Made by a program: the position numbers and the translations under genes. 35,747 bases of DNA from Myxococcota bacterium (lineage in GTDB: Bacteria > Myxococcota_A > UBA9160 > SZUA-336). The DNA lies in the NCBI GenBank assembly GCA_035498015.1, contig DATKAO010000112.1, positions 1 to 35,747 of the forward strand, in the 5' to 3' direction. A model generated the notes under the pieces. That model ran no database searches and was not told where the DNA came from. It was given only the letters and a program-made list of their open reading frames with translations. Of the stretch, positions 726 to 11,070 are shown piece by piece. Numbering within the stretch: position 1 is the first letter of the stretch; each line of letters begins with the position of its first letter.

Positions 726-815
<90 letters not shown>

Positions 816-7791: not shown

Positions 7792-8653
7792 ACAGGGGGC
7801 CGTCGCGGCGCGCGAGCGCGCCGAACTCGGCGGCGAGCTTCTCGGTCACCGGGCCGGGCGCGCGCACGCCGATGCGCGCGCCGTCGAGCGTGCGCACGCC
7901 GACCACGCGCGCGCCGGTGCCCGTCAGGAACACCTCGTCGGCGGAGATCAGGTCCATGCGCGAGAGGGTCTGCTCGCGCGCCGGAATCCCGAGCCCGGCA
8001 GCGAGCTCGAGCACCGACATGCGGGTGACTCCCTCGAGCGCGCCGTCGGTGGCCGGTGGCGTGAGCAGCGCCCCGCGCCGGAACGCGAACACGTTCGCGA
8101 CCGCGGCCTCGGCCACCATGCCGGCCGCGTTCAGGATCAGCGCCTCGTCGGCGCCGCGCAGCCGCGCCTCGCGCTTGGCCATGACGCTGTTCAGGTAGTT
8201 CAAGCTCTTCACGCGCGGGTCGAGCACGTCGGCAGGGGGCCGGCGCAAGCTCACGGTGACCATGTCGACGCCCGCGCGCAGCTTCTCTTCGGGATAGAGC
8301 TCGATCTCGCAGGCGATGCACACGATCCGCGGCTGGAGACAGCGCGTCGGATCCACGCCCAGCGCGCCGTCGCCGCGAGTCACGAGCAGGCGCACGTAGC
8401 CCTCGGGCCGGCCGAAAGCGCGCGCGGTGGCCAGCACGATCTCGCGCACCGCCGCTTGGCCACCCGGGATCTCGAGCCCGATCGCGCGCGCCGAGTGACC
8501 CAGCCGCTCCAGGTGCGAGTCGAGCCGGAACACGCGCCCGCCGTACAGGCGGATGCCCTCGAACACGCCGTCGCCGTAGAGCAGCCCGTGATCGGTCACC
8601 GGGATGCGCGCGTCCGCTCCGTCGACGATCCGACCCTCGATCCAGACCTTCAT
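7775..8653 (-). CDS. ilvE: Branched-chain amino acid aminotransferase (PLP fold type IV)
   Basis: Transfers the amino group between glutamate and the 2-oxo acids of valine, leucine and isoleucine in the cytoplasm. The 292-residue length is normal. YGDGVFEGIRLY (residues 26-37) is the BCAT substrate-side motif, K149 in VKSLNYLNS is the PLP lysine, and E..VANVFAF and LTGTGARVVGV are the cofactor phosphate-binding regions. The ATG is preceded by AGAAGGAG. The start overlaps the stop of iclR (ATGA), so the two form one unit controlled from the iclR promoter. A D-amino-acid aminotransferase or 4-amino-4-deoxychorismate lyase is less likely because of the FEGIR motif. Confidence 0.92.
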   Translation of the reverse strand: MKVWIEGRIVDGADARIPVTDHGLLYGDGVFEGIRLYGGRVFRLDSHLERLGHSARAIGLEIPGGQAAVREIVLATARAFGRPEGYVRLLVTRGDGALGVDPTRCLQPRIVCIACEIELYPEEKLRAGVDMVTVSLRRPPADVLDPRVKSLNYLNSVMAKREARLRGADEALILNAAGMVAEAAVANVFAFRRGALLTPPATDGALEGVTRMSVLELAAGLGIPAREQTLSRMDLISADEVFLTGTGARVVGVRTLDGARIGVRAPGPVTEKLAAEFGALARRDGPLFMTAG

Positions 8654-9411
8654 CGCGCCTCTCCTTCTGCGCGCGGCTCGCCGCCGAGCCGCGCTTCGAC
8701 CTCGCGCGCCGCGGCGAGCAGCGCGGTGTGGAACACGTCGCGCCCGTCGAAGTGACTGCTCGGACCGGCCGCGGCCAGCGCGCCGAACAGCCGGCCGCCG
8801 CTCTGGATCGGCACCGCCACGCCCGCGAGGTCGGGGATCCACTCGCTGCGCATCGCGGCCCAGCCGCGCTGGCGCACGGCCTCGACCTCGCGCGCCAGCT
8901 CGCGCGTGTCGACCACGGTGGCCGGCGTGAAGCGCGCGAGCGGCGGCTCGAGCGGGCGGAGCGCCTGGGGCGCGAACGCGAGATACACCTTGCCGATCGC
9001 GGTGGCGTGGGCCGGGATCTCGGCGCCGATGCGCGGAGCAGCGCGCAGGAAGCCCGTGCCCTCCTGCTTGTCGAGCACGTAGAGCCGGCCCGCGCGCGCG
9101 CCGGACAGGAAGATCGTCTCGCCCAGCTCCTCGGCCACGCGCTCCACCACCGCGCGCGCTGCCGCGACCAGCGGCTCGCGGTCGAGCACGCCCAGGCCGA
9201 GCGCGAGGAGCGCGATGCCGGGCTGGTAGCGCCCGCGCGCGTCCTGCTCGACCAGCCCGCGCCGCGCAAGCGAGGTCAGGAGCCGGTGGGCGGTCGATTT
9301 GGGCAGCTCGAGGGCGCGCCCCAGCTCCGAGACCCCGCGCGGCGTCCCGCCCGATTCGTGCAGGTGGAACAGCACTTCCAGCGCCTTGTCGATCGCGCCC
9401 GAGAGCTCCAC
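8650..9411 (-). CDS. IclR-family transcriptional regulator
   Basis: A 253-residue DNA-binding regulator. The N-terminal winged helix-turn-helix is at residues 5-70 (ALEVLFHLHESGGTPRGVSE, LPKSTAHRLLTSLARRGLV) and the effector-binding IclR domain occupies 80-245 (GETIFLSGARAGRLYVLD, IPAHATAIGKVYLAF, GVAVPIQSGGRLFGALA). It directly precedes ilvE with a 4-base overlap. Two GTTCC-N7-GGAAC palindromes lie 15-51 bases before its start, at the predicted transcription start, which points to negative autoregulation of the iclR-ilvE unit. The ligand is unknown; a branched-chain oxo acid or a substrate of the neighbouring glycosidase-like enzyme are guesses. Confidence 0.93.
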   Translation of the reverse strand: MELSGAIDKALEVLFHLHESGGTPRGVSELGRALELPKSTAHRLLTSLARRGLVEQDARGRYQPGIALLALGLGVLDREPLVAAARAVVERVAEELGETIFLSGARAGRLYVLDKQEGTGFLRAAPRIGAEIPAHATAIGKVYLAFAPQALRPLEPPLARFTPATVVDTRELAREVEAVRQRGWAAMRSEWIPDLAGVAVPIQSGGRLFGALAAAGPSSHFDGRDVFHTALLAAAREVEARLGGEPRAEGEAR

Positions 9412-9497: not shown

Positions 9498-10715
9498 CTA
9501 TTCGTTGGCGCGCATCTCCAGGGCGAGCGCGGGCCAGAACGACGAGTCACTGCCGTCCGCTTCCGGGTCCTCCGCGCTGGCCGTGAACGACTCGTGGAAG
9601 CCGCGCGCGAGCGCGAGCTCCTCGAGCTGCGTGCGGGCCATGCGCGCGTCGGGTCCGCGGTCGGCGCGCGCCAGCACCAGGTGCGCCCAGTAGGCCGCGA
9701 GCGCAGACACTTGCGCGCCGTTCGCCGCGGCGGGGCCGCGCTCGTCGCGCTTGATCGGCCGAAGCGAGAGACCTTGCGTGACCCAGAGCGGCGACGCCCC
9801 GGGCCGCAGGTGCCGGTCGACGGCGCGCTTGGGCGTGCCTTCGTCGAGCAGGCTCTTCGCCGCGGCCGGCACGAGCCCGCCGGCAGTCACTCCCCGCAGC
9901 GCGGCCTGCCGGCCGCGGTTCCAGGCGGTGTAGATCTCCTGCTCGTCCCACCACAGCCGGCTCGCGATGCCCTCGGCGATCATCTCCGAGCGGATGCGCA
10001 GCTTGAGACACACGTTGGCGTCGCCGAGCTTCTCCCAGGCGTGCGAGCACGCCTCGAGCGCCACCAGCAGCCAGCCGCAGAAGATCGGGTCCTCGATCAC
10101 GAAGGCGTGACCGGCGCGCAGCGCGCGCTCGGGGTCGAGCTGGCAGGCGCTCGCCGAGCGCAGCAAGGTCGCGCTCTCGTCGCGCCACGCTTCGTCGGAT
10201 TCCTGCTCGACGAGCTCGTCGAACAGCGCCGAGCGCGCGCAGCCGGACTCGAGCGGGTGGAGGATCACCGGCAGCGCCGTGTCGGGCGGCAGGCGATGGC
10301 CCCAGATGGCGTCGAGCTCGCGCGTGCCGGCTTCGAGCAGGTCGCGCAGCTTCGCGCCGCCCGCGAACGCCAGGCGCGCGGCGGCATAGGCGGCGACCGG
10401 CGGCGCGATCAGGATCGAGCGCTCGTCCTCGCCGAACAGCGGCCCGACCTGCGCCTGATAGGCGGCGCGCGCCTCCGCGCCGAACGCGCGCGCGCCCGAG
10501 ACCAGGCCGTCGCTGCGCTGGCACTTGGCGTACAAGGCGCGCAGCTCCGCGGCCGCGGCCGCGGCGTCGACGTGGCGCAGCGCGAGCGCGACGTGCGCGG
10601 AGTCCCACGCGGAGAGCACGTTCGGTGACTCGCGGTCGGCGACGTGGAACGACACGCCGTCCGCTTCGCGCGCAAGGGCAGACAAGAGGTCCCGGCAGCG
10701 CCGCTCGAACTCCAC
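9498..10715 (-). CDS. Putative (alpha/alpha)6-barrel glycosidase-like protein
   Basis: The 405-residue protein resembles six-hairpin glycosidases of the GH63/mannosylglycerate-hydrolase type. NVLSAWDSAHVALALRHVD (about residues 33-51), ILHPLESGCARSALFD (near 150-165), ARWDEQ-like RLWWDEQEIYTAW near 255 and the ending FHESFTA...FWPALALE occupy the places of the family motifs. Several hallmark residues differ: the usual HPWESGMDNSP is here HPLESGCARSA, so the enzyme is divergent or possibly inactive. No signal peptide is seen, so it is probably cytoplasmic. The GTG start has GGGAGCGGAG just upstream. A structured leader with mini-ORF and terminator precedes it on the same strand, and iclR-ilvE follows after an 86-base gap with its own promoter. 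Confidence 0.72.
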   Translation of the reverse strand: MEFERRCRDLLSALAREADGVSFHVADRESPNVLSAWDSAHVALALRHVDAAAAAAELRALYAKCQRSDGLVSGARAFGAEARAAYQAQVGPLFGEDERSILIAPPVAAYAAARLAFAGGAKLRDLLEAGTRELDAIWGHRLPPDTALPVILHPLESGCARSALFDELVEQESDEAWRDESATLLRSASACQLDPERALRAGHAFVIEDPIFCGWLLVALEACSHAWEKLGDANVCLKLRIRSEMIAEGIASRLWWDEQEIYTAWNRGRQAALRGVTAGGLVPAAAKSLLDEGTPKRAVDRHLRPGASPLWVTQGLSLRPIKRDERGPAAANGAQVSALAAYWAHLVLARADRGPDARMARTQLEELALARGFHESFTASAEDPEADGSDSSFWPALALEMRANE

Positions 10716-10753: not shown

Positions 10754-10821
10754 GAAAAACCCCGAAGGTGCTGCAGCCGCGAACGGCCGCCCGCTCAGTG
10801 ACAAAGCGGACCCTCGGGGTT
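10754..10821 (-). terminator. Rho-independent-type terminator with branched loop
   Basis: On the minus strand AACCCCGA and TCGGGGTT form 8 base pairs directly followed by the T-run (GGGGTTTTTCC). Inside are two sub-hairpins, CCGCT/AGCGG (10809-10805 with 10795-10791) and GCCG/CGGC with a TTCG loop (10787-10776). It ends 39 bases before the glycosidase-like start codon, so it would block that gene unless prevented from forming. Confidence 0.65.
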
Positions 10822-10869
10822 CGGGTGGTGCCTGGGCCAAGCCAAGTCAGCCACCGTTGCCAGGCTGAC

Positions 10870-10914
10870 CTAGCTGGTAACCACCTCTACCGTCACTGTG
10901 TTCGAATGAGACAC
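10870..10914 (-). CDS. 14-residue Val/Thr-rich mini-ORF, possible leader peptide
   Basis: GTG start, TAG stop, predicted peptide MSHSNTVTVEVVTS. Four of 14 residues are Val and three Thr, using AT-richer codons (GTA, GTT, ACA, TCT, CAT) that are uncommon in the surrounding genes. A perfect AAGGAGGT lies 9 bases upstream, one of the best ribosome-binding sites in the window, which argues for real translation. It is followed at once by alternative hairpins and a terminator. The same-strand cluster downstream ends in the branched-chain aminotransferase gene, so valine or threonine sensing is conceivable, but this is inference. Confidence 0.5.
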   Translation of the reverse strand: MSHSNTVTVEVVTS

Positions 10915-11042
10915 TTCCGGACCACCTCCTTCCGCGGCGCACCAAGTCGCGCGGGACCCAGCCTCCCGCTCCGGTCGCCGCCCGCCCGTCGACGGCATGG
11001 ACCGGACCGGACGCCACGCAGGCGCCCGAAGCCGACGCTTCG

Positions 11043-11070
11043 AGGGTATCGCGCGCGGCGCGGCGAGCAA
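11043..11070 (-). promoter_or_regulatory. Weak candidate promoter for the structured leader
   Basis: On the minus strand TTGCTC (11070-11065) and TACCCT (11048-11043) are spaced by 16 bases, about 110 bases before the mini-ORF Shine-Dalgarno. Both boxes are imperfect. The stretch 10932-11042 between it and the leader holds nothing else that I recognise. Confidence 0.3.

Follow-up and report, generated by a model that had tools for sequence, protein, structure and literature searches.

Sequence comparison places a myxococcal RNA with a predicted mini-ORF pseudoknot beside the actinobacterial Ms_IGR-5

Attenuators of the trp type combine a short translated open reading frame (ORF), alternative helices and an intrinsic terminator. 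Another described RNA, Ms_IGR-5, is typed in Rfam (RF02471, 'Actinobacteria sRNA') as an sRNA, and the accessible parts of its descriptions do not mention an ORF. Relatives of Ms_IGR-5 were confirmed as an sRNA by RNA-seq in S. lividans and as an sRNA transcription unit in S. avermitilis (PMC8079986, PMC8780764). Ribosome footprints were observed in M. abscessus and M. smegmatis, and the authors of that study caution that many non-coding RNAs show footprints (PMC4974804). No function of Ms_IGR-5 is reported in the open papers that were searched, and searches of the literature under Rv0812/Rv0813c and under the peptide strings turned up nothing on the RNA.

In this paper we looked at a related locus on the minus strand of a Myxococcota genome, within a stretch of 35,747 nucleotides that we call the window. 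The original prediction described positions 10931-10754 as an attenuator-like leader, and all of its features were found to be present, including the Shine-Dalgarno (SD) sequence and the 14-codon Val/Thr-rich ORF. Based on the sequence, positions 11037-10754 are probably a free-standing RNA, about 285 nt long, that has a predicted promoter and a terminator of its own. The features, in order of transcription, are as follows.

11043 to 11070, minus strand: probable promoter, with a -35 TTGCTC (11070-11065), a 16-nt spacer and a -10 TACCCT (11048-11043); conservation by eye.
10932 to 11037, minus strand: structured 5' leader of the myxococcal form, from the family alignment, with a predicted 5' end.
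10919 to 10931 (read 10931-10919), minus strand: extended SD AAGGAGGTGGTCC; from the sequence.
10870 to 10914 (read 10914-10870), minus strand: mini-ORF with GTG start, 14 codons and UAG stop, VSHSNTVTVEVVTS; frame conservation.
10892 to 10898, minus strand: 5' arm of helix H5, CAGUGAC, ORF codons 6-8; covariation.
10882 to 10887, minus strand: GAGGUG inside the ORF, SD-like, 6 nt 5' of the last sense codon; conservation.
10880 to 10885, minus strand: 5' arm of helix H4, GGUGGU; covariation.
10846 to 10869, minus strand: post-stop hairpin GUCAGCC/GGCUGAC (10869-10863/10852-10846); alignment by reading.
10831 to 10846, minus strand: local hairpin CUUGG/CCAGG (10846-10842/10835-10831); alignments by reading.
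10824 to 10829, minus strand: 3' arm of H4, ACCACC, just 5' of the terminator stem; covariation.
10796 to 10802, minus strand: 3' arm of H5, GUCACUG, within the apical loop of terminator hairpin 1; covariation.
10754 to 10821, minus strand: branched intrinsic terminator with outer stem (10821-10810/10769-10758), hairpin 1 (10809-10791), hairpin 2 and U tract (10759-10755); sequence, minimum-energy fold and conservation.

With blastn the element is found once in each of the ten family relatives (10/10), and 49 other genomes of the class give no match. A covariance model, R1, was built from 13 sequences. Of 91 genomes in the class it matches 66, and of 284 in the phylum 63; there is usually one strong match per genome, and second matches are weak or short. 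The searches with models covered two phyla, Myxococcota and Actinobacteria. An exact-pattern scan of named genomes, which may miss copies elsewhere, gave 12 matches, 11 of them labelled Myxococcales, Deltaproteobacteria or Proteobacteria and one labelled as a 'Rhodococcus' MAG, and one pattern scan of viral contigs gave zero. The original prediction knew of no named family for this RNA; the nearest one is RF02471. In a lax search the window RNA scores 37.9 bits against it (E 3.2e-7), which is less than the gathering threshold of 45, and no genome of the window's class has a match over this cut-off. The alignment nevertheless spans the complete model (1-184 of 184), both for the window and for six other loci (L005, L008, L010, L015, L016 and L019). 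The Rhodococcus locus scores 121 bits. Among genomes of its actinobacterial family 39 of 61 have a match over the cut-off, as do 26 of 296 in the phylum sample. The SD, the end of the ORF, the pre-terminator arm and the 3' hairpin are common to the window RNA and to the RF02471 members above the cut-off. This comparison of sequences makes the window RNA a myxococcal relative, and a divergent one, of the actinobacterial Ms_IGR-5; we do not call it a member because its score lies under the cut-off.

The mini-ORF peptide has four Val residues besides its GTG start and three Thr residues, and the ORF ends with AGC-TAG. Among 136 myxococcal and actinobacterial loci, mostly collected by BLASTN or by RNA models that are blind to reading frames, a pattern search finds 125 with a shared layout of a very strong SD, an ATG, GTG or TTG start, 7-10 AT-rich codons, GAG-GTG, three codons and a stop. 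Between start and GAG the frame is open in 125/125 loci, the other two frames in 26 and 0, and all three values modulo 3 occur in the distance from SD to GAG. The stop is TAG in 97 loci, TGA in 20 and TAA in 8. The 11 exceptions were read by hand: six have near-cognate starts (CTG, ACG or ATC), in two the Val codon GTA replaces GTG with the H4 partner changed to match, one (L109) has lost the stop, and in two related loci (L150 and L152) the usual ORF end is lost and H4 is kept by reading. The last three, in which the ORF end is lost or extended and H4 is seemingly retained, are natural tests of the need for translation. The early ORF codons were already described as AT-rich, and this trait is kept in three groups of relatives, with a G+C of 0.32-0.40 against 0.66-0.70 past the stop.

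One explanation for such an ORF is that the RNA is a dual-function sRNA whose short peptide is the active product. Glu-Val, followed by three residues and the stop, is kept in 124 of 125 loci, as this idea would predict, yet there is almost no constraint on the first 5-8 residues. The peptide varies between loci and does not keep its Val and Thr residues, as in LDQPSTTASEVAAS and MYEYRTREVAAG. GAG GTG occurs in 124 of 125 loci, with one CAG GTG, although the search pattern fixes GAG/CAG-GTG and the stop distance so that these counts are partly built in. GAA never takes the place of this GAG, and 114 of 125 loci have NGU as the codon before it; the constraint on the ORF end therefore looks largely nucleotide-level, and we regard the active peptide as improbable.

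The usual 3' tail of 16S rRNA is GGAUCACCUCCUU, and AAGGAGGTGGTCC can pair with 12-13 nt of it if G-U pairs are allowed; the tail itself was not found in this assembly. AAGGAGGTGRTCC occurs a single time in the whole 4.5-Mb genome, at this locus. It is possible that the RNA is a ribosome or anti-SD decoy that binds the 30S subunit and titrates or reports free ribosomes, with the ORF merely ending the encounter cleanly. This would fit with the sole such site in the genome and with the 13-nt run of 16S-tail match in 48 of 49 actinobacterial loci, but 25 of the 62 other myxococcal loci match over only 6-10 nt, and a decoy does not require the covarying helices H4 and H5 or a fixed distance from GAG-GTG to the stop. 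We find the decoy unlikely, although less so than the active peptide.

Other pairings of the SD region were also considered. The helix between SD and ORF that is drawn in Rfam pairs in 92.6% of cells, yet it shows zero double changes and was rejected. Helices flanking the SD (A/A' and B/B') look bistable in some families and were left out of the model, since neither holds in the window's family in a swap test; in the other Myxococcota A is enriched (0/1000) and B is not. In L087, L090, L093, L104, L116 and other loci the SD-flanking arms CCGAGAC and GAUUCGG are complementary to each other and can alternatively pair with CCGAAUC and GUCUCGG after the stop, which is possibly a bistable switch around the start site of these loci.

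Two helices connect the ORF with the terminator region. In H4 (10885-10880/10829-10824) the GAG-GTG-NNN codons pair with the bases immediately before the terminator, and in H5 the codons 5' of GAG-GTG pair with the apical loop of terminator hairpin 1. H4 was not named by the original prediction; RNAalifold itself proposed it while model R1 was being built, and it is the best conserved helix. H5 is the heptamer pairing (10898-10892/10802-10796) that had been noticed in the sequence, and it is now backed by compensatory changes. Such changes are seen for H4 between GGUGACCAUC/GAUGGUCACC (L068) and GGUGGCUGCC/GGCAGCYACC, and for H5 between CUACGACG/CGUCGUAG (L094) and CUACGGCG/CGCCGUAG.

The arms were compared in a swapped-arm test, in which terminators were located independently because placing the 3' arms by their own complement would bias H4. 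Over all groups the own arms win every draw for both helices (H4 0/1000, H5 0/1000). A control arm from the ORF start gave 313/1000 against the loop and, across groups, a weak 5/1000 against the H4 window. Taken alone, H5 is weak in the window's own family (24/1000), where the arms are too alike, and it gives 26/1000 in Actinobacteria, where the arms are mostly invariant. Pair counts in MAFFT alignments made without structure reach 98.5% of cells paired with 7 double-change cells (A3), 92.9% with 9 (A1) and 98.8% with 10 (A4), and none of 500 shuffles reaches them in any of the three; as the shuffles ignore kinship, these values are not probabilities. Slid controls, which keep the kinship, likewise stay well below on cells paired. 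The covariance and conservation comparison that had been proposed for this locus has thus come out positive for the ORF and for the helices.

The remaining parts of the RNA were mainly read from alignments. The fold of the 182-nt RNA is 3.9 standard deviations better than dinucleotide shuffles (z -3.9). By eye, the myxococcal copies have a longer structured leader than the actinobacterial ones, which seem to start ~10 nt 5' of the SD, judging from a promoter-like TTGCC-N17-TACNNT. A leader hairpin GCGGGA-GGCUGGG-UCCCGC (10969-10964/10956-10951, minus strand) is kept in the family alignment. The predicted promoter is suggested by a TTGCYC-N16/17-TACYCT that many family relatives have at the same position when the alignment is read by eye; a simple promoter consensus scan found no sigma-70 site there, and a terminator consensus scan gave no match. 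Many actinobacterial promoters of L047-L075 have a GAAAA(A) run right before the -35, similar to an UP element. After the stop, the hairpin varies in sequence yet pairs in some close relatives (GGUCCGCC/GGCGGACC and GGUCAAC/GUUGACC, by reading). The 7-bp hairpin and the competing 6-bp helix (10865-10860/10835-10830) of the original prediction are both present, but the competitor is not the conserved element, since most family relatives keep a local hairpin CCUGG/CCAGG instead. The branched, U-tailed terminator is present as described, and 39 bases separate its end from the GTG of the glycosidase-like ORF (9498-10715).

The position of the terminator raises the question of whether the RNA controls the genes that follow. 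In a classical attenuator, translation of the Val/Thr-rich leader would decide readthrough into the glycosidase, IclR and ilvE-like genes, and branched-chain amino acid sensing was suggested on this basis. The ORF, the terminator and the long-range pairing are all real, and the window and four relatives have the ilvE-like gene among their same-strand genes downstream. However, the downstream genes differ. The next gene in the window is an MGH1-like glycosidase, which is missing in two family members; an acyl-CoA synthetase follows in 17 other loci, and in Actinobacteria a nitrobindin-like gene lies in the opposite orientation. Rough gene calls from codon-position G+C put the gene that follows on the strand opposite to the RNA at 31 of 45 actinobacterial loci, and 44 of 63 myxococcal loci have it on the RNA's own strand; in the wider myxococcal set, 51 of 58 loci have a divergent gene upstream. 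Such varied downstream genes and strands fit a free-standing unit; given the same-strand count, a cis effect on the neighbour is possible in Myxococcota.

The ilvE-like gene of the window is preceded by an IclR-type regulator gene (8650-9411), and just 5' of the latter, between it and the glycosidase gene, there is a palindrome TTCCGCA...GAACgctGTTC...TGCGGAA (9461-9427, minus strand). From its sequence and position the palindrome is likely an autoregulatory operator, and it points to a separate transcription unit for the IclR-ilvE pair. In other myxococcal families (L087-L158), about 30 loci have a divergent upstream ACT-domain gene that looks like formyltetrahydrofolate deformylase (purU).

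Besides the gene context, the Val and Thr residues of the leader peptide are not conserved and there is no conserved run of regulatory codons. H4, H5 and the terminator can form together, with no arm of either helix in the terminator's outer stem, so there is no choice between terminator and antiterminator among these three. An antiterminator that excludes the terminator was not found among the H4 and H5 arms, and other antiterminators were searched non-exhaustively. H4 and H5 leave the terminator intact. The proposal that a translated mini-ORF pairs with the terminator domain is supported by conservation and covariation, but attenuation of a downstream branched-chain gene is not supported. 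Attenuation with branched-chain sensing is, in our view, the least probable of the readings discussed here and very improbable.

On the comparison of the loci, which gives the ORF, H4, H5, the terminator, the free-standing context and their conservation, we base a different reading: it is moderately probable that this is a free-standing RNA with a pseudoknot that is opened by ribosomes translating the mini-ORF. The exceptionally strong SD would load ribosomes onto the 14-codon ORF. When the ORF is free of ribosomes, its codons would be locked in the pseudoknot by H5 (codons 6-8 with the terminator loop) and by H4 (Glu-Val-Val with the pre-terminator bases), and a ribosome that arrives at the stop would have to melt both. 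GAGGUG lies at the distance from the stop at which an SD would position the final sense codon in the P site, and this suggests pausing at termination; with this start-site-like spacing GAGGUG may hold the terminating ribosome at the stop, while its invariance may also be caused by H4 or by selection on the amino acids. The RNA would then exist in two forms, one open and occupied by ribosomes and one locked and ribosome-free. Its output would probably be in trans, through ACCACC and the terminator loop, the 3' arms that would be set free, or through RNA stability, and ribosome binding is another candidate. As a tentative and rather doubtful extension, Ms_IGR-5-type RNAs might be two-phylum translation-gated switches with the ribosome as ligand, in which the 13-nt SD loads, GAGGUG parks the ribosome at the stop and the pseudoknot opens or locks to report in trans on initiating and terminating ribosomes.

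An RNA that is catalogued as an actinobacterial sRNA thus appears to be translated and to be common to at least two phyla, usually with one clear copy per genome. Its ORF seems to double as part of a covarying pseudoknot on the RNA's own terminator. Ms_IGR-5 gains a concrete mechanism that can be tested, and relatives in Streptomyces and in M. smegmatis, the latter with ribosome footprints, make such tests feasible in tractable species.

How does this RNA compare with known systems? tmRNA (RF00023) was rejected: Rfam has no match to it at the locus, ARAGORN finds only a tRNA-Ser (CGA; 726-815, minus strand) in the window, and genome-wide in this incomplete assembly RF00023 gives only three sub-cut-off matches of 76-86 bases each. 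The closest system is RF02471, which aligns over its full length and has the SD, the end of the mini-ORF, the pre-terminator arm and a GC-rich 3' hairpin in common with the window RNA; neither H4 nor H5 is drawn in its Rfam structure, where the SD pairs with the ORF, and the window RNA differs by its score under the gathering threshold and by the longer, structured leader of the myxococcal form. The trp-type attenuators share the short ORF, the alternative helices and the terminator, but the window RNA is without a constant downstream gene, conserved regulatory codons or, among the arms of H4 and H5, an antiterminator that excludes the terminator. The LEU element of Actinobacteria, found upstream of leuA, also has short leader ORF codons within a conserved pseudoknot, but it has a run of Leu codons, sits immediately upstream of leuA and pairs with that gene's SD (PMC1262725), while the window RNA has no Leu run or other repeated regulatory codon, is followed by the glycosidase gene, is probably free-standing and pairs with its own terminator. 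The dual-function sRNAs SgrS and SR1 (PMC11133741) are likewise free-standing RNAs with a small ORF; they differ from the window-type RNA, whose ORF has 11-15 codons and a mostly unconserved peptide, and whose codons themselves form conserved helices.
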